A stretch of DNA of 44,162 bases from Hyphomonadaceae bacterium (GTDB lineage: Bacteria > Pseudomonadota > Alphaproteobacteria > Caulobacterales > Aquidulcibacteraceae): NCBI GenBank assembly GCA_014378995.1, contig JACMMP010000207.1, positions 1 to 44,162 of the forward strand, in the 5' to 3' direction. This document shows, in pieces, positions 1 through 30,660 of the stretch. Below the pieces are notes generated by a model. That model saw nothing but the letters and a program-made list of their open reading frames with translations. It was not told the origin of the DNA and searched no databases. Positions within the stretch are counted from its first letter, which is position 1; each line of letters begins with the position of its first letter. A program made the translations under genes and the position numbers.

Positions 1-898
1 CAACGGTCCATGCCGCGCGAATTTCCGCCGGCGTCTCAAAAGCCGCTGCGCGCCAACCGAGCGCCGCCCGCGCAGCCGCCACCTCCGCCGGTCCCAGCGG
101 CGCGCCGTGAACAGCGGCGCTGCCCTGTTTGGAGGGCGCGCCATAGCCGATGATCGTGCGGCAAGCCACGAAAGACGGACGCGGATCCAGTCGCGCGGCA
201 GCGAGCGCCATTGCGATTGCCGCTGTGTCGTGGCCGTCGACGGAGACCGTGTGCCAGCCAGCCGCCGCAAAACGATCTAGCTGCGCCGTTGAGGTCGACA
301 GGCTGGTCGGGCCGTCGATCGAGATTTCGTTGTCGTCCCAAAGCACGATCAGACGCGCAAGTTGCAAATGCCCGGCGAGATCGAGCGCCTCTTGGCTCAG
401 CCCCTCCATCAAGCACCCATCGCCCGCGATAACGTAAGTGAAGTGATCGACGAGGCTATCGCCGAAGCGCGCGTTCAACATGCGCTCCGCCAGCGCCATG
501 CCGACCGCGGCGCCAAGCCCCTGTCCCAGCGGACCAGTGGTAGTCTCGACACCGAGTGTGTGCCCGTACTCCGGATGTCCGGCGGTGCGGCTGCCGAGTT
601 GGCGAAAGCTTTCCAGTTCTTCGCGCGGCATATCGGCGTAGCCGATCAGATGATGCAGCGCGTATTGCAGCATCGAACCGTGCCCAGCCGACAGAATGAA
701 ACGATCGCGATCGGGCCAATCGGGTTGCTGGGGGTCAATCGTCAGAAATTGCGTAAACAGCACCGTGGCCACGTCCGCCATGCCCATCGGCATGCCTGGG
801 TGACCGCTCTTGGCGTGCTCCACCGCATCCATCGCCAAAGCGCGGATTGCGTTCGCCATGTCTCGCATCGTGACATCGGGCGTGAGCTGATCAGGCAT
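1..898 (-). CDS. tkt: Transketolase, N-terminal part (cut by window edge)
   Basis: Thiamine-diphosphate enzyme moving two-carbon units in the regenerative phase of the Calvin cycle and the pentose phosphate pathway; cytosolic. Reading back from the ATG at 898 the frame stays open to the window edge, about 299 residues. It shows the transketolase N-terminal signatures: [12 protein letters not shown] near residues 31-42, SAGHGSML with the active-site His near 73, GPLGQG, and the ThDP/metal motif GDGCLMEG followed by NEISIDG. The PP domain is visible; the Pyr and C-terminal domains lie outside. Its ATG overlaps the end of prk by 8 bases, so it is translated in a row with prk and fbp, which argues for a CBB-dedicated copy (cbbT). 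Whether another tkt exists in the genome cannot be seen. Confidence 0.95.
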
Positions 899-1778
899 GG
901 CGCTCACCGCTGCGGCGGCTGCGGTCGATCAGACGAATGATCATGGGCGTGAGGACAAGCTGCATCGCCAGGTCGAGCTTATCGCCGGGAATGACGATGG
1001 AATTGGCCCGGCTCATCCAGCTGCCGGCGATCATCGAGACCAGGTAGGGAAAATCAATGCCGCGCGGATCGCGGAAGCGGATCACCACGAGGCTCTCGCC
1101 CACAGTCGGTATCCAGCGCGCAATGAACGGGTTGGATGTATCGACGACGGGAACGCGCTGGAAATTGATGTCCGTGTGACTGAACTGCGGACAGATCACG
1201 TGCACATAAGCGTGCATGCGGCGCAGGATCGTATCGGTCACCGCTTCGGTGCTGTAGCCGCGCGAAGCGCGGTCCCGGTGCATCTTCTGGATCCACTCCA
1301 AATTGATGACCGGCACCACGCCGAACTTGAGATCTGCAATTTCGGCGATGTTGATGTCGTCGGTCTTCAGCGCGCCATGCAGCCCTTCATAGAACAGGAC
1401 GTCCGTACCCTCGCCGCACTCCCTCCAAGCGGTGAATTCTCCTTGGGGGACGCCGTGGAGTTTTGCTTCGGCTTCATCGTGCACGTACTGCCGGGTCTGC
1501 GCGCGGCCAGTTTCGCCATAACTTTTAAACTGGCGCTCGAGCTCTTTCAGATCATTGGCCTCAAGCGAAAAGTGGCTGAAGGTCATGTCGCCTTCGCTCG
1601 TGCGCTTCACGAGTTCGGCCTTCATGTCTGCCCGGTTGTAGCGATGAAACGCATCACCCTCGATCGACGCGGCGGTGATCTTCTCGCGCCTGAATATCTG
1701 ATCGAACGTATGCTTCACGGTGCTCGTGCCCGCGCCCGAAGAGCCGACGACGGCAATGATGGGATGAGCCACCGACAT
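891..1778 (-). CDS. prk: Phosphoribulokinase
   Basis: ATP-dependent phosphorylation of ribulose 5-phosphate to ribulose 1,5-bisphosphate, the CO2 acceptor for RuBisCO and one of the two reactions unique to the CBB cycle. The 295-residue product has the usual length of the proteobacterial (class I) enzyme. It begins with a Walker A loop GSSGAGTST (residues about 12-20), followed by the family stretches [24 protein letters not shown] and [11 protein letters not shown]. It lies 8 bases downstream of fbp and overlaps tkt. Also known as cbbP. Presence of this gene is the strongest evidence in the window for autotrophic capacity; the RuBisCO genes themselves are not in view. Confidence 0.96.
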
Positions 1779-1786
1779 CGCTTCGC

Positions 1787-2848
1787 CTAAGAGCTAAACA
1801 AGCCGCGCTGCTGGAACAGCGGCGCGACTTCGCGAGCAAAAGAGGGATCGAGGTGATGCTGGCGCACGAGTTCAACCAGCGGCGGCGAGCCGAACACCAA
1901 AGGCGTGCGCTGATGCAGCTCCGCCGGAATCTTGTCGAGAATGCGCTCGATGCCGTCGGTGGCTGCGCCGCCCGCTTGCTCCACCAACATGGCCAGCGGC
2001 GCCGCTTCGTAGAGCAGCCTTAGCCTCCCGTTCTCGTAGCCCGCGCGGCGATCAGCAGGATAAAGATAGATGCCGCCGCGGGTGAGGATGCGATGCGCCT
2101 CGCCGATGACGCATGCGACCCAGCGCATGTTGAAGTTTTTCACGCGCGGCCCGTCGTCGCCCGCAACGCAATCCTCGATGAAGCTTCGGATCTGCGCTGA
2201 CCAATGGCGATTATTGGAAGCGTTGATCGCATACTCGCGAATAGCCGCATCAATACGAACGCCGCGCTTTGAGAGCCGGAAGGTTTCGGTGTCGGGATCA
2301 AGCACGTAGAGATCGACGCCCTCGCCGAGCGTGAGCATCAGCGCCGTGTGCGCCCCGTAGATAAAGTAGCCGGCCGCGAGTTGTTCGGATGAAGGCCGAA
2401 GAAACGACGCCGTCGCGCCAGCCGCGGAAACCGGCAGGATCGAAAAAATCGTGCCGATCGCGGCGTTGATGTCGATGTTCGAAGAACCGTCCAGCGGATC
2501 GACCGCGATAGCTAAATTTCCACCCGCGTTTAGCGTGAGAATCGCGTCTTCTTCTTCCGATGCGTAATAGGCAACGGCCGTATTCTTTAGCGCATCGAGC
2601 ACAATTGTATTTGCGGCGACATCCAATGCCTTTTGCGAGTCGCCATCGGCATTCCTTGCGCCGGTGTCTGCGCCGAGTTCGCCGGCCAGGGGCCCGCGCG
2701 CGGCAAGCCTCGATACCGTCGTGCCGGCGTGTGCAAGGGCTAGAACCGCGCCAACAATTACGGAGCGCGAGCTATCCGAGGCGGCCCAGGCCCTAAGCGT
2801 CTCCTCGAGCGTAGCGCCCACCGGGAACAGTTGGCTTGCCGGGGCCAT
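1787..2848 (-). CDS. fbp: Fructose-1,6-bisphosphatase, class 1
   Basis: Hydrolyses fructose 1,6-bisphosphate (in CBB versions often also sedoheptulose 1,7-bisphosphate) in the regenerative phase of the cycle. About 353 residues. The metal/substrate motif AVDPLDGSSNIDINAAIGT is clear in the middle, preceded by ASEEEDAIL, and GGIYLYPADRR lies in the C-terminal half. I chose the ATG at 2848, which has GGAG at good spacing (GGAGAACGCCC before ATG); an in-frame start at 2890 would add 14 residues without a visible ribosome site. First gene of the minus-strand CBB run fbp-prk-tkt and divergent from cbbR, as in classic cbb operons (cbbF). Confidence 0.94.
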   Translation of the reverse strand: MAPASQLFPVGATLEETLRAWAASDSSRSVIVGAVLALAHAGTTVSRLAARGPLAGELGADTGARNADGDSQKALDVAANTIVLDALKNTAVAYYASEEEDAILTLNAGGNLAIAVDPLDGSSNIDINAAIGTIFSILPVSAAGATASFLRPSSEQLAAGYFIYGAHTALMLTLGEGVDLYVLDPDTETFRLSKRGVRIDAAIREYAINASNNRHWSAQIRSFIEDCVAGDDGPRVKNFNMRWVACVIGEAHRILTRGGIYLYPADRRAGYENGRLRLLYEAAPLAMLVEQAGGAATDGIERILDKIPAELHQRTPLVFGSPPLVELVRQHHLDPSFAREVAPLFQQRGLFSS

Positions 2849-2950
2849 GGGCGTTCTCCAGCCGGACCGACGCCCCGCGTGCGAAAACACTTGCCTTGCG
2901 GTTGGGAAAAGAAAATTTTAAAAGAAATACGCCTTGCAAAGAAAAACTAA
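2849..2950. promoter_or_regulatory. Divergent fbp/cbbR control region
   Basis: The 102 bases between the two divergent genes include an A-rich stretch (about 2908-2950) that stands out from the GC-rich surroundings. LysR-type CbbR proteins bind T-N11-A boxes in exactly such cbbR/cbb intergenic regions and activate the cbb operon while repressing themselves. Short T-N11-A matches are present but too frequent in this A-rich tract to pick one with confidence. Confidence 0.5.
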
Positions 2951-3865
2951 ATGTCAGATCTCCGCGGGCTTTCCTTGCGCCAACTCCGCGCGCTGGCGGC
3001 GACGGTGGAGCTGGGCTCCGTGTCGGCGGCGGCGCGGCAGCTTTATGTGACTCCGCCGGCGATCTCGATTCAGTTGAAGTTATTGGCTAAAATTGCCGGC
3101 GCCGAGATTGTCCAAAGGACGCCCACCGGATTTGAACCCACCGATGTCGGCCGCGAACTCCTCACTGCTGCGAACGAAATCGACCGTTTGCTCGGGCGCT
3201 TTCAGGATCGGATTGCGGCTTTGAAGGCGGGCGCCACGGGGTTGGTGAGTCTGGGGGTGGTGAGCACTGGAAAGTACTTCGCGCCGGCGATCGTCGCCGC
3301 CTTCCAGCGCGCGGAGCCGGGCATCGTCGTCAAACTGTCTATCGGAAACCGGAGCGAGATCATCAAAGGCCTCGAACAGCACGAGTTCGACCTACTGATC
3401 ATGGGGCGTCCGCCCGAACACGTGGAGGTCATGCGCGAGATTCTCGGCGATCACCCGCATATCTTGATTGCACCACCCGATCATCCGCTCGCCAACCAGC
3501 CCGGCCTCGGGCCGGAAGATCTCGCGCAACAGACCTTTCTTGCTCGCGAGGAAGGGTCCGGCACTCGCATGTTGATGGCGCGCTTCATCGACCGGATGGG
3601 GGGGCGATCCTATAAAGTGGTCGAAATGGGCACCAACGAAACGATCAAACAAGCCGTCATGGCAGGCTTGGGAATTGCGATCATTTCGGCCCATACGTGC
3701 GCGTCGGAACTTGCTCAGGGCAAGCTGATCGCGCTCCAGGTCGGCGGCCTCCCCATCGTTCGCCAATGGTATTTGATTCACCGCATTGATCGCGAACTCA
3801 GCCACGCCGCCCGACGTTTCCAGAGCTTCGTGGCAAACAACAAGCCCGCTCTTTTGCCGCGCTAA
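2951..3865 (+). CDS. cbbR: LysR-family regulator CbbR
   Basis: 304-residue LysR-type transcriptional regulator. The N-terminal winged helix-turn-helix (residues about 5-65) has the family pattern LSLRQLRAL, GSVSAAARQLYVTPPAISIQLK. The remainder is a periplasmic-binding-protein-like co-inducer domain with GLVSLGVVSTGKYFAPAIV and IGNRSEIIKGL, typical of CbbR rather than other LysR proteins. It is divergent from fbp-prk-tkt, the standard position of cbbR. Expected role: activation of the CBB genes in response to metabolites such as RuBP or NADPH (family knowledge). Start: ATG at 2951 shortly after an A-rich leader; no strong Shine-Dalgarno is seen. Confidence 0.93.
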   Translation: MSDLRGLSLRQLRALAATVELGSVSAAARQLYVTPPAISIQLKLLAKIAGAEIVQRTPTGFEPTDVGRELLTAANEIDRLLGRFQDRIAALKAGATGLVSLGVVSTGKYFAPAIVAAFQRAEPGIVVKLSIGNRSEIIKGLEQHEFDLLIMGRPPEHVEVMREILGDHPHILIAPPDHPLANQPGLGPEDLAQQTFLAREEGSGTRMLMARFIDRMGGRSYKVVEMGTNETIKQAVMAGLGIAIISAHTCASELAQGKLIALQVGGLPIVRQWYLIHRIDRELSHAARRFQSFVANNKPALLPR

Positions 3866-3966: not shown

Positions 3967-4476
3967 ATGGTGCGTTCAATTCTTGGCGCTGTTGCGCTCG
4001 CCGCGCTCGTGTCGATGGCGGCATGCTCACCGCCAGCGGAAAAAGCGTCTCCGCCACCGACAACGACGGCTGAAACTCCGGCGCCTACGCCGCCACCCGC
4101 CGCGCCCGTGGGCGAAGTGATGCAGCTTGCGATTACCGATGCGAGCGGCGCGCAATTGTCTGGCGATACTGAGCGTGGGCGGCGCATCTTCGCGCAGTGC
4201 GCCACGTGCCATTCCCCGGATCAGGGCGTGAACCGTGTCGGCCCGTCACTGCATGCAATCGTGGGCCGTCGCGCTGGCTCTATTCCGGGCTTCCGCTACT
4301 CGGACGCCAACCGCAATTCCGGCATCACCTGGACCGAGCAGGAAATGTTCACGTACCTCGAAAACCCCCGCGCCCGCATACCCGGCACGATCATGGCTTT
4401 CGTCGGGCTGCGTAATCCTCAGCAACGCGCTGACGTCATCGCGTATCTGAAGCACAACGCAGCGACCAATCCGTAA
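3967..4476 (+). CDS. Lipoprotein-type class I cytochrome c (c2-like)
   Basis: 169 residues. A signal sequence (residues 1-19, MVRSILGAVALAALVSMAAC) ends in a lipobox-like MAAC with Cys20, so the protein is probably lipid-anchored. A Pro/Ala/Thr-rich linker (about 21-50) leads to a single class I cytochrome domain with haem motif CATCH at 78-82 and likely axial Met143 in GTIMAFVGL; the C-terminal helix contains ADVIAYLKHN. A strong ribosome site AGGGAGG sits at 3951-3957. Such anchored c2 proteins (compare cytochrome cy) carry electrons from the bc1 complex to the reaction centre or to oxidases. It lies between CBB and PGC genes and, with no pufC in the puf operon, is a good candidate for the reaction-centre donor (inference). 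Confidence 0.85.
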   Translation: MVRSILGAVALAALVSMAACSPPAEKASPPPTTTAETPAPTPPPAAPVGEVMQLAITDASGAQLSGDTERGRRIFAQCATCHSPDQGVNRVGPSLHAIVGRRAGSIPGFRYSDANRNSGITWTEQEMFTYLENPRARIPGTIMAFVGLRNPQQRADVIAYLKHNAATNP

Positions 4477-26278: not shown

Positions 26279-27499
26279 ATGAACTACGACGCTTTCTTCA
26301 AGGATCAGCTGGACGCCCTCCACGGGGAAGGCCGCTATCGCATTTTCGCAGAATTGGAACGCAAGGCAGGCGCCTTCCCGCGCGCCAAGCGGTACAAGCA
26401 AGACGCCGTTGCTGAGGTCACGGTGTGGTGCTCGAACGATTATCTGGGCATGGGCCAAAACCCCAAAGTGCTGGCCGCCATGCATGAGGCGATCGATCAA
26501 TGCGGCGCTGGCGCCGGCGGCACGCGCAACATTTCCGGCACCAATCACTACCACGTGCTGCTCGAGCGAGAATTGGCCGATCTCCATCGCAAGGACGCCG
26601 CGCTGCTGTTCACCTCCGGCTATGTATCCAATTGGGCGGCGTTGAGCACACTGGCCTCCCGGCTGCCGAATTGCGTCGTGCTTTCCGACGCGGGAAATCA
26701 TGCCTCAATGATTGAAGGCATCCGCCACAGCGGCGCCGAACGGATCATCTTCAAGCACAGCGATCCCGAGGATCTCGATCGCAAGCTCGCGGCGCTGGAT
26801 CCGGCGCGGCCAAAGCTGGTTGCGTTCGAATCCGTCTATTCGATGGATGGAGACATCGCCCCCATCGCCGAGCTATGCGACGTCGCCGACAAGTACGGCG
26901 CGATGACCTATCTCGACGAGGTTCACGCCGTGGGCCTCTACGGTCCGCGCGGCGGCGGCATTGCCGAGCGCGATGGCGTCATGCACCGGCTGACCGTGAT
27001 CGAAGGGACGCTCGGCAAGGCGTTTGGCGTACTCGGCGGCTACATCGCCGGATCGGGGGCCATGTGCGACTTCGTCCGCAGTTTCGCTTCGGGCTTCATC
27101 TTCACGACGGCGCTGCCGCCGGCGGTTGCCGCCGGCGCGCTGGCGAGTATCAAGCATTTAAAGGAGAGCCAGGTCGAACGCACCCGGCATCAAGAGCGCG
27201 TCGCCAAAGTGCGCCGCAAACTCGACGCGCTCGGCATTCCGTGCATGGACAATCCGAGCCACATCATTCCGGTGATGGTCTGCGATCCGATCAAGTGCAA
27301 ACAGATCAGCGATTGGCTGCTGGACAATTACGGCATCTATATTCAGCCGATCAATTACCCCACCGTGCCGCGCGGCACTGAACGCTTGCGCATCACACCC
27401 TCGCCCCTGCACTCCGATGACGACATCGACCGGCTAGTCTCGGCGCTGTCGGATTTGTGGTCGCAATGCGCCTTGAATCGCTCCTCGGCCGCCGCTTGA
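26279..27499 (+). CDS. hemA: 5-aminolevulinate synthase HemA
   Basis: PLP enzyme condensing glycine and succinyl-CoA to ALA, the alphaproteobacterial (C4) entry to tetrapyrroles. 406 residues. Visible: [70 protein letters not shown], and the PLP lysine Lys247 in [10 protein letters not shown]. Placement as the last pigment gene of the bchF superoperon ties precursor supply to bacteriochlorophyll synthesis. Many purple bacteria carry a second ALA synthase elsewhere; this cannot be judged here. Confidence 0.96.
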
Positions 27500-28047
27500 G
27501 CAAAGCGCGCGCCACCGCCGCACACCGCGCGGATGAGATCGTAATTCCAGCGATCGCGGCCGACGGTACGCTTTACCCAATGGAAAAAATGCAGGCGCAC
27601 CGCCAGGGCGCATTGCACTTGGCCATATCCGTTTTCGTGATGGACGGCGATGCGCTCCTCATGCAGCGGCGCGCACTGACAAAATATCATTGCGGCGGGC
27701 TCTGGGCCAACACGTGCTGCTCGCATCCCAGCTGGGGCGAGACGCCAGAGGCGAGCGCACGCCGGCGATTGCGCGAGGAGCTTGGGCTCTCGCTCGATCT
27801 GGACGCACGGAATGTGATCGATTACGAGGCCGAGGTGACAAACGGCCTGCGCGAGTGCGAACGCGTCCATGTCTTTCGCGGCGAAGCGGACCGCAACACG
27901 ATCCTACTCTCACCCGATCCTGACGAAGTGAGCGATGCGCGCTGGGTGAGCTTGCCGGTGCTGCGCAGCGACGTCGCCGATCGTCCCGGAGCATATGCAC
28001 CCTGGTTTCGCATCTACCTGAACCGCTGGGACGAACTCGGTCTCTAG
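27466..28047 (+). CDS. idi: Isopentenyl-diphosphate delta-isomerase, type I
   Basis: Nudix-fold isomerase interconverting IPP and DMAPP, feeding carotenoid and phytyl-tail synthesis. About 193 residues: [39 protein letters not shown] with the catalytic Cys, the Nudix-like helix [11 protein letters not shown], and the Glu-bearing [18 protein letters not shown]. Start is ATG 27466 or GTG 27457; either overlaps the end of hemA by about 34-43 bases. In Rhodobacter idi also lies in the photosynthesis cluster. Last gene of the superoperon, followed by a terminator. Confidence 0.94.
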
Positions 28048-28119: not shown

Positions 28120-29274
28120 TTAGTTGCGCGGCGCCTGCTCCGACGGCGCTGGCCGTTGTTCTGGCGGCGTCGTCGGCGCAGTGCCTTCGGCGGGCACATT
28201 GCCTTCAGGGATGGTCGCCTCCGGCGTCGGGATGATTGCGCCGTCTTCCGGCACCGGCGTCAGAGAGCCAGCCGCGTCTGCGGGCAGTGGCGGCAGCGGC
28301 CCCTGATCCTGCACCGGCAAAGGCGGGCCGACATAGGTCGCGCTGGTGTCGTAACCAGGCGCGAAATTATGCTCGACCGCCCAGAGGTACCAATTGTCGA
28401 CAGCGGTGCCTGTCAACAAGATGCCAATGCCGCCCGTGAGCGTGCACAACACGGCAAACCACCAGGCCCAGCGGTGAATGGATTCAGCGGTGGCGTTAAA
28501 GCCCATCGTCCAGCGCCAGAACAATGCGCCGCGTTCGAAGGCGGTGCCGCGGTCGGTGATCTGTTCGATTTCGCGCTCGCCGCCGTAGCGGCTGACGGCG
28601 AGCACGGTGGCGCCGTGCATGGCGAAGAGAAGCGCCGAACCGTAGAGGAACGCGATCGAGAGCGCGTGGAACGGGTTGTAGAAGAGATTGCCGTAAGTGA
28701 TCGAGAACGCGCCCGTCCAATCCAAGTGCGGGAAGATGCCAAACGGCACCGCTTCGCTCCAGCTGCCCATCAGGATCGGGCGAATGAAGCCAAGCACGAG
28801 GTAAAGCCAAATCGCCGACGCGAAGGCCCACGCGACATGCGTCCCGAGGCCTAGCGAGCGGGCGCGGTTATAGGTGCGTATCCAGAAAAGAATGATGGAT
28901 GTCGTCAGGAAGAAGCCGGCCATCAGCCACCATCCGCCTTGGTTGAGCGGCGGCAGGATGTTCAGCCCCTGCTCCGGCGGCGGCGGCTCGAGCGCGAGCC
29001 ACGGCAATTGCCGCACGAACTCGATCGGGTCCCACCCCACCGACGCCCACATGTTGAGCCCGATGATCTCAATGGCGATGAAACCGCAGAAGAGCGACGC
29101 AACGCCGGTCCAGCCCAGATAGATCGGGCCAAGCTGGGCGTTGCCGATCCAACCGAGCAAACGACTGTATGTTTTCCCGCGCGTGCGCGGCTGATCGCCT
29201 TGAGGCAACGCCGGACCGGTCTCATACGGCCCGCGAACCTGAACTTGCGTGAAGATGTTCTGATACGCGGTCAT
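28120..29274 (-). CDS. pufM: Reaction-centre M subunit PufM with long C-terminal tail
   Basis: M subunit of the type-2 reaction centre, holding half of the special pair, the non-haem iron site and QA. Five membrane helices; recognisable are [84 protein letters not shown] and [13 protein letters not shown]. The core ends near residue 315 (normal M subunits are about 305-325). A Pro/Ala/Glu-rich, apparently disordered tail of about 69 residues follows ([19 protein letters not shown] in part), on the periplasmic side by known topology. Total 384 residues. Start 29274 shares ATGA with the pufL stop; an in-frame start at 29334 would lie inside pufL. No pufC follows. Confidence 0.95.
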
Positions 29275-30119
29275 GGATTCGACCCTCCAGAAGACGCTTC
29301 CCAGATCGGCAGGTCGAGCCACCAATTCCACCACTCAGGCCAGCCGAGAACCCAGACCGGTCCGCTGATGATCATGCAGACGGCGCTGAAAAACACAGCC
29401 GCGAGCGCGAGGAAAAGCCCGAGCCTGTGAATGCCGAGCGTGCCAATCGAATAGCCCATCACGTCGCGGAAGAAGGTGTCCTCGTACTCAGGCGACTTCA
29501 CCGTACCGCGGTTGCCGGGATTGACCGCCGACAAAATGAGCGAGCCGTGCAGCGCGAGCGCAAAGCACGTGGTGAAGAAGAACGACACTGCGATCATGTG
29601 TGCGGGATTGTAGTGGAAGTTGAGATATTGATAGCCGGTGTTGGACACCCAGTCCAAATGGCTGAAAATCCCGTATGGAAAGCCGTTGGCCCATGCGCCC
29701 AGCATGACTGGGCGAATAACGACGAGCGTCACGTAAGCGGCGATGGCGAAGCTAAACGCGAACGGGACGTGCAGTCCCATCCCAAGCTTGCGCGAGATTT
29801 CGACTTGCCTAAGCGCCCAGGAAACGAATGCGCCGATCGCACAGATGGTGATGACCTGCCAGAGGCCCCCCTCTTTGAGCGGGGCAAGTCCCAATCCGTA
29901 CCTTGCGTCCGGCGGATTGATGCTGATCAGCCAGACATTCCACGTCGGCCCTATGGCCGCGCCGTAGATGATCAGCGCCGTTCCCAGCGACGCGAAAAAG
30001 ATCGTCGTGACCCCGAAGAAGCCGACGTAAAACGGCCCGACCCAAAAGTCGAACAAATCGCCGCCGAGCAGTGTCCCGCCGCGAACGCGATACTTTCTTT
30101 CAAAGCTCAGGAGGGCCAT
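29271..30119 (-). CDS. pufL: Reaction-centre L subunit PufL
   Basis: 282 residues, five membrane helices, normal length. Landmarks: [81 protein letters not shown], and [14 protein letters not shown]. It binds half of the special pair and the QB pocket. ATG at 30119; separated from pufA by 110 bases holding a hairpin. Confidence 0.97.
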
Positions 30120-30174
30120 TGCCTCTTCTCCGCCAAGCCAGCAGCAAGTCCCGCCGCCGCACTAAGTTTGAACA

Positions 30175-30212
30175 CGACGAGCGCAATCGAGTTTGATCGA
30201 TCACGCTCGCCG
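30175..30212 (-). ncRNA. Intercistronic mRNA hairpin between pufA and pufL
   Basis: Two 16-base arms (30175-30190 and 30197-30212) pair over almost their full length, allowing G-U pairs, with a six-base loop. No T run follows, so it is not a terminator. In R. capsulatus a hairpin at this place blocks 3' decay and keeps pufBA mRNA in excess of pufLM, giving many LH1 units per reaction centre; the same role is inferred here. Confidence 0.75.
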
Positions 30213-30229
30213 CGCGTCATGTTGCCTGC

Positions 30230-30415
30230 TTAAGCCGGGTTGATCGGCGACTCGATCGAAGCTGCGGGAGCGGAATTTGCCCCCGGTCCTTCGATCCAGT
30301 TGAACCGATCAGTGCTGAGCAGGATGAAGTGGATCAGCAGTGCGAGCGTGAACAGGAAGATAAACAACCCGATCAGAACGCGCCGCGGATCAAAAAGCAG
30401 CCAAAGTCGCCACAT
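30230..30415 (-). CDS. pufA: LH1 alpha polypeptide PufA
   Basis: 61 residues, single membrane helix. N-terminal [17 protein letters not shown] is the LH1-alpha hallmark; His29 ([12 protein letters not shown]) is the bacteriochlorophyll ligand, followed by RFNWIEG. The Ala/Pro-rich C-terminal tail is normal for the family. Lies 14 bases after pufB. Confidence 0.97.
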
Positions 30416-30429
30416 GTTTCAGTCTCCCT

Positions 30430-30660
30430 CTATCCGAAGAAAGCCGAAGCCGTGAGGCTGGCCATTTGGATGCCGTCTTGTAGTTCGGCGTAACCGCCGG
30501 GGCCTGGCAGCCAAGGACGCCACATCCAGACGAGGATGTGAGCGACGATGGCGATAAGCGTGAAGAGAATGAAGCTCCCCATAAATACTTTGTGGAACTC
30601 TTTCGCTTCAGCCTCAGTCAGGCCCGATAGTGACCCTGTTCGGGCGTCTCTTTCTGACAT
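30430..30660 (-). CDS. pufB: LH1 beta polypeptide PufB with extended C-terminus
   Basis: 76 residues, longer than the usual roughly 48-55. The core is standard: [21 protein letters not shown] with His23, membrane helix with ligand His41 ([17 protein letters not shown]). After RPWLP, where most LH1-beta chains end, about 25 further residues follow ([20 protein letters not shown] in part), facing the periplasm by known topology. Strong ribosome site GGAGGA before the ATG. First gene of the puf part; 190 bases downstream of bchZ. Confidence 0.95.

Follow-up and report, generated by a model that had tools for sequence, protein, structure and literature searches.

PufM, the M subunit of the photosynthetic reaction centre, carries a long, acidic and proline-rich C-terminal tail in a puf operon without pufC. 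We propose, with a probability of about 0.38, that on the donor side of the reaction centre this tail would form an acidic arm, perhaps serving a probably lipid-tethered cytochrome c2 whose gene lies in the same cluster. What is unusual about the locus is the PufM tail; the PufB tail and the lack of pufC in the operon are ordinary. The window, i.e. the whole stretch of DNA analysed (44,162 nucleotides, from a Hyphomonadaceae bacterium), contains the following features.

3967..4476, + strand: cytochrome c2-like protein at the end of the photosynthesis gene cluster (PF00034, 39.8 bits, cut-off 21.3)
3967-4026, + strand: signal and lipobox of the c2 (pattern match)
4027-4155, + strand: linker of the c2, 43 residues, Pro/Ala/Thr, followed by a class I haem domain with one haem motif
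27457..28047, + strand: idi-like ORF (named by eye), convergent with pufM
28100-28073, - strand (that of pufM): terminator-like hairpin, 12-bp stem, directly after pufM
28123..28368, - strand: PufM C-terminal tail, 82 residues after ...WYLWAVEH, net charge -8, 24% Pro, 13% Ala
29274-28120 (also given as 28123..29274), - strand: pufM, reaction-centre M subunit, 384 aa, ATG at 29274 (TIGR01115; PF00124)
30119-29271, - strand: pufL (TIGR01157, 439.8 bits)
30415-30230, - strand: pufA, LH1 alpha, 61 aa (NF040861)
30433..30504, - strand: PufB C-terminal tail, 24 residues after RPWLP, a common long form
30660-30430, - strand: pufB, LH1 beta, 76 aa (NF040862, 86.5 bits, curated cut-off 61)

The puf operon and its neighbours

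The operon has the order pufB-pufA-pufL-pufM on the minus strand (30660-28120), and all four products match curated models. PufM reaches 523.5 bits against TIGR01115 (curated cut-off 364.25) and PufB also scores above the curated cut-off of NF040862, so both belong to their respective families. No extra gene was seen inside the operon. The terminator that had been predicted right after pufM is indeed there, in the form of the 12-bp hairpin, and behind it lie the idi-like ORF and then a hemA-like ORF (also named by eye), both convergent with pufM. No pufX was found directly behind pufM, the place being taken by the hairpin and the idi-like ORF, i.e. judged at this locus the core is not of the PufX type. 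A bchZ-like ORF (named by eye) ends only about 190 nt before pufB, which leaves little room for pufQ. The expected absence of pufX and pufQ thus holds for the DNA adjoining the operon. Window positions 1-3865, which adjoin the photosynthesis gene cluster, contain ORFs resembling (by eye) a transketolase, a fructose-bisphosphatase and a CbbR-like LysR regulator, which suggests a Calvin-cycle cluster. The window's family is very probably that of Aquidulcibacter, as the DNA behind pufM in G003 translates identically to that of A. paucihalophilus TH1-2; PMC12700997 places this genus in the Caulobacterales.

Absence of pufC and gene order behind pufM

The original prediction placed no pufC in or next to the operon; this is correct, and a profile search with PF02276 across the window's genome (87.8% complete) gave no match either. 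The genome-wide search covered 24 and 35 genomes, three of them common to both sets, with the named loci (see below) outside its scope. Two of the 24 family genomes with a puf match were positive, namely G055 (same genus as the window) and G023 (same family), and the eight other long-tail genomes were unmatched like the window. The window's reaction centre does not belong to the tetrahaem-cytochrome kind, either by presence of pufC or by a PufM end of 18-27 residues.

The surroundings of puf are syntenic among the family genomes compared. The order is pufM-pufC-idi-hemA in the pufC-containing G055 and G023, where pufC lies between pufM and idi, and pufM-idi-hemA in the window, G025, G011 and locus L031, where the distance behind pufM is about 70-330 nt; in G030 it is about 2 kb. 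The simplest reading of this gene order is that pufC may have been deleted behind pufM. The PufM of G055 groups outside the long-tail branch in the PufM-core tree, so a transfer of the gene cluster could also have played a part. In five long-tail genomes (G046, G050, G035, G037 and G029; loci L123-L125, L127 and L128) the idi-hemA pair is inverted relative to the window.

We also considered the PufM tail as a remnant of PufC, as several PufC C-termini are Ala/Pro-rich too, yet no alignable similarity was found by eye and the idea was dropped. The PufC of G055 (L131) has a strongly acidic Asp/Glu/Ala tail beyond its last haem motif.

Length of the PufM C-terminus in operons with and without pufC

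The PufM ends were compared in a panel of 129 distinct PufM sequences, drawn from 80 named loci and from genome searches at three levels (60 genomes of the family, 299 of the order, 385 of the class). Tail length was counted as the residues after the position of ...WYLWAVEH, and an operon was scored as pufC-containing if at least three CXXCH motifs lie close behind pufM. Long tails are over-sampled in this panel because the 80 named loci were taken as the best matches to the query, with one of the search patterns placed inside the tail. Six order genomes with a pufM match fall outside the panel (G086, G088, G103, G174, G179 and G198); they cannot have a long PufM tail since their open frames are only 306-330 aa.

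The PufM ends of pufC-containing operons are 18-27 residues long in 76 of 78 rows. The remaining two, L037 and L047 from Myxococcota, have tails of 122 and 104 residues; these are Ala/Ser/Pro-rich and occur alongside pufC, and the PufC of L037 has an Ala/Ser/Pro-rich end as well. In the 51 rows without pufC the ends comprise 4-10 residues in 37, 20-21 in three and 59-86 in eleven. Ten of these eleven are related, i.e. nine genomes of the window's family and the MAG L031. The eleventh, L162 (G622), belongs to another family and has an 86-residue tail of unrelated sequence with a net charge of -18; its genome gave no PF02276 match.

Long PufM tails are enriched among the rows without pufC (11/51 vs 2/78; Fisher p 0.0007 with kinship ignored), which is not a phylogenetic test given the kinship of the rows and a tree that yields no more than three starred independent pairs. 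The suggested link between the PufM tail and the loss of pufC therefore stands as an association, resting on very few origins. Independent-pair tests were also tried and set aside, as they had too little power for every trait pair.

In a tree of the PufM core (tail excluded) the ten related long-tail rows fall in one branch of 23 rows (SH-aLRT 98). The same branch holds 13 short-tailed rows without pufC, some of which are nested among the long-tailed ones with supports of 82-94. This topology, with its modest supports, fits a single gain of the tail in this branch followed by later losses. Three frames were read downstream of the stop in the short-tailed relatives, and nothing similar to a fossil tail was seen by eye.

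Composition, constraint and predicted disorder of the PufM tail

TIGR01115 (305 positions) ends at residue 306 of the window's PufM, which leaves 78 residues beyond the model. The original prediction was right that PufM is extended, and its estimate of about 69 extra residues was too low. The tails of the ten related operons share a net charge of -5 to -9 and 24-30% Pro, contain no Cys and are 59-85 residues long. The many insertions and deletions imply that the exact length matters little.

The PufM tail is weakly but significantly constrained, i.e. under weak purifying selection. In seven of the ten long-tail sequences (G035 and G037 were omitted as close to G050, and G030 as hard to align) the tail has a pooled pN/pS of 0.516, 3.4 times the value of 0.151 for the core. 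The tail value is below 1 in 21 of the 21 pairs of these seven sequences, and significantly so in three non-overlapping pairs (Fisher p 1e-6, 0.002 and 1e-4). Furthermore, a distal motif of the form IIPTPxxxxPEG...PAEGTAP can be recognised in nine of the ten sequences, G030 being the exception.

PufM residues 311-384 have a pLDDT below 50 in an AlphaFold2 model built from 26 aligned rows, and the tail is probably disordered. The model as a whole is modest (mean pLDDT 61.7), and residues 1-53 likewise stay below 50. When the last 93 residues of PufM were compared to solved structures, RC-M chains matched only over the first 18-28 residues. Matches to SspB chains (E 0.36-0.6) were taken as chance.

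The PufB tail

A PufB tail of about 25 residues past the RPWLP end had been predicted, and this is what we find: NF040862 ends at residue 51 of 76, 25 residues before the end of the protein, and 24 residues follow RPWLP. Such tails are ordinary. At least 15 residues follow the RPWL position in 75 of the 114 scored operons (PufB was unscored in 15 of the 129 panel rows), and long PufB is found in 45 of 68 operons with pufC and in 30 of 46 without (Fisher p = 1). Where a long PufM tail comes with a scored PufB, that PufB is long in all ten rows (nine relatives without pufC and one pufC-containing Myxococcota row), and the PufB of L031 is long as well. Long PufB is nevertheless simply a common type, as 65 rows carry it without a long PufM tail. 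The long PufB is shared by six of nine short-tailed relatives of genus g2, and the PufB of the other three is short, which shows that the two tails have no fixed pairing.

The notion of matching, coordinately lengthened tails thus does not survive: the PufB tail is as common with pufC as without it, and its independence of pufC, named beforehand as an observation that would speak against the idea, is largely what the panel contains. According to PMC7806223, the Rps. palustris maps have no density for the C-terminal 13 residues of LH1 beta or the final 17 of LH1 alpha, and mass spectrometry revealed heterogeneous cleavage of these tails. The PufB tail has no special part in the mechanism discussed below.

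A cytochrome c2 with a lipobox

The cytochrome at the end of the photosynthesis gene cluster is a class I cytochrome c by its match to PF00034. Orthologues were defined by at least 125 bits and at least 49% identity, the latter limit being added after the data had been seen; 125 bits alone is also passed by the pufM-less G034 (130.7 bits, 46%) and G012 (125.1 bits, 43%) and by the pufC-containing G543 (125.3 bits, 46%). By this rule the c2 is present in 40 of the 43 order genomes that have pufM and no pufC beside puf (20/20 in the family, 20/23 in the others) and absent from three, G103, G180 and G239. In 30 of the 40 it lies on the pufM contig, 15-54 kb away, and in 10 on another contig. One of the 40, G268, has two PufM loci, one without pufC and a second (55% identical to the query PufM) with pufC, i.e. 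beside a PF02276 match. Two further genomes, G015 and G027, with puf fragments at contig ends only, also have the c2 and are counted outside the 43.

The same rule gave no orthologue in the pufC-containing G055 and G023, nor in 15 of the 16 pufM-less family members tested. The exception, G028, has a lipobox c2 near a contig end (L260, 9552-10004); the genome is rated 100% complete and no pufM was found in it, and its photosynthesis gene cluster may be unassembled or lost. Outside the order, the c2 occurs in one of seven genomes without pufC (G420) and in two of 17 with pufC (G310 and G620), and it is absent from the long-tailed, pufC-less G622. The lipobox is present in G310 and G620 and weak in G420, and the gene order at the c2 end of the cluster in G310 is very similar to that of the window. 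A strict or dedicated replacement of PufC by this c2 was rejected since it is also found in the pufC-containing G310 and G620. Its distribution, together with the gene order in G310, makes it look like an old member of the cluster rather than one invented after the loss of pufC.

A lipobox, detected by pattern match only, was found in 29 of the 30 c2 loci examined, G027 having none, and by this motif the c2 is probably lipid-anchored. The haem domain carries a net positive charge in eight of nine long-tail genomes, G025 (-1) being the exception, and lies between -5 and +5 in short-tail genomes. Linker lengths of the c2 are 43-57 residues in the nine long-tail genomes vs 53-97 in 18 short-tail ones (Mann-Whitney p 8e-5), a comparison that contains few independent events because half of the 18 short-tail values come from one genus. 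The 18 short-tail values come from among the 31 other order genomes that have the c2 and no pufC, and G027 was dropped as it lacks the lipobox. The linkers are themselves acidic, with a net charge of -3 to -7 in long-tail genomes. In L224, L225 and L226, from other families of the order, they reach 92-97 residues with a net charge of -27 to -30.

A possible role for the PufM tail

We propose that the lineage lost pufC by a deletion behind pufM and that, once the cytochrome subunit was gone, a c-type cytochrome would have to dock directly on the reaction centre. The PufM tail would then reach into the periplasm on the donor side as a flexible arm with a negative charge. Such an arm could enlarge the capture radius, or the local concentration, for the mostly basic haem domain of a c2 that a lipid tether would already keep at the membrane, and could hold it loosely, whereby re-reduction of the special pair would be freed from dependence on free diffusion. 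We base this on the length of the PufM ends (18-27 residues in 76 of 78 operons with pufC, mostly 4-10 without) together with the contacts of the RC-M end with Cyt, on the position of pufC between pufM and idi in G055 and G023, on the acidity of the tail in the ten related operons and in the unrelated G622, on the constraint on the tail, on the presence of the c2 in 40/43 order genomes that lack pufC beside puf, and on a haem domain of positive net charge in 8/9 long-tail genomes. It also agrees with docking in Rba. sphaeroides, described as a positive c2 on a negative RC (PMC6688529). The suggestion that the tail guides an anchored cytochrome gains some support from the lipobox cytochrome c of the same gene cluster (window 3967-4476). 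If the proposal is right, the PufM C-terminus would track the type of electron donor; in the panel, length alone separates operons with pufC from most of those without.

Several observations speak against an arm. Most operons without pufC (37/51) manage with 4-10 residues and the tail was apparently lost within the window's own family. Long tails also occur with pufC (2/78), and the c2 is patchy, being present in the pufC-containing G310 and G620 and missing in the long-tailed G622. The acidic c2 linkers could moreover compete with the PufM tail for the same site. A tail without any specific role is almost as likely: the end that docks PufC would no longer be needed, the C-terminus would have drifted, and a Pro/Ala/Glu-rich extension would be harmless in the periplasm, so that the weak constraint would act only against aggregation, protease sites and loss of solubility. 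Drift sits well with the variable length (59-85), the many indels and the 3.4-fold pN/pS, and with short-tailed relatives nested among long-tailed ones and long tails both with and without pufC. It is harder to reconcile with a pN/pS significantly below 1 in three non-overlapping pairs, with a distal motif kept in 9/10 sequences and with acidity recurring in the unrelated, pufC-less G622.

That same conserved motif could instead mean that the tail binds and stabilises or shapes the core complex itself, its partner being either the C-termini of LH1 or an uncharacterised periplasmic subunit. Periplasmic tails might hold complexes together by analogy with the LH1 alpha extensions that bind Cyt elsewhere (PMC10214105, PMC9640540), but no structure is predicted for the tail, the window's operon has no extra gene, and the long (6/9) and short (3/9) PufB of the short-tailed g2 relatives show no fixed pairing; we consider this improbable. 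A joint surface of the PufM and PufB tails in place of PufC or PufX, as originally suggested, is not supported and is very unlikely. Long PufB does accompany the long M tail in ten of ten scored rows (one with pufC) and in L031, but 65 rows combine it with a PufM that has no long tail, operons with and without pufC carry PufB tails equally often, and LH1 beta tails are described as cleaved in Rps. palustris (PMC7806223).

Returning to the acidic arm, we speculate that two tethers could replace the bolted-on cytochrome. One would be the flexible linker of a lipid-anchored c2; the other, confined to one clade, would be a charged, disordered PufM arm that has taken over part of the tethering. The shorter c2 linkers of long-tail genomes are what such a trade-off would predict, and we regard this extension as rather unlikely.

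Comparison with known systems

We recognised no account of a long PufM tail or of a lipid-anchored c2 in the literature searched, which does not prove that none exists. Long PufM chains are found in the PDB entries 7o0u (chain M, 367 aa) and 9h19 (chain M, 392 aa), which we take to be Gemmatimonas complexes. In phmmer, residues 1-379 of the window's PufM align with residues 1-381 of 9h19_M. These chains are missing from the 24 matches obtained with the last 93 residues of PufM, although low-complexity tails rarely match. The Gemmatimonas complexes contain an RC-C cytochrome subunit according to PMC12817894, whereas the window's genome has no detectable pufC. In Cyt-containing species the C-termini of RC-M are described as contacting the Cyt subunit extensively (PMC9640540). 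This docking end of purple bacteria with pufC occupies the same position in the chain as the window's tail, on the periplasmic donor side (PMC9640540), but it has 18-27 residues in 76 of 78 operons as opposed to 82 in the window, where pufC is absent.

The LH1 beta chain of PDB entry 6z5s is long as well (65 aa in the PDB), and residues 8-59 of the window's PufB align with it. We presume that this entry is from Rps. palustris. A difference is that the C-terminal 13 residues of the Rps. palustris chain are described as missing or cleaved (PMC7806223). At the interface of RC and c2 in Rba. sphaeroides positive c2 residues pair with negative RC residues, as described in PMC6688529. In other species LH1 alpha has C-terminal extensions that bind the reaction-centre Cyt subunit (PMC10214105, PMC9640540).

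On the side of the donor, the cycA of Porphyrobacter neustonensis, listed at one end of the photosynthesis gene cluster in PMC5424368, resembles the window's c2 by position; the text there makes no mention of a lipid anchor. In a comparison with cytochrome cy, the window's c2 matches 6xkw_Y with E 1e-25. Cytochrome cy retains a transmembrane anchor, whereas the lipobox of the window's c2 (pattern match only) suggests a lipid anchor. The cy of Rhodobacter is described as a membrane-anchored mono-haem cytochrome that serves as a donor to the reaction centre (PMC9640540). The usual account of how reaction centres are re-reduced after losing the bound cytochrome offers either PufC or a c-type cytochrome that is soluble or held by a transmembrane anchor; if our proposal is true, an acidic PufM arm combined with a lipobox c2 conserved in the gene cluster would be a further donor arrangement.
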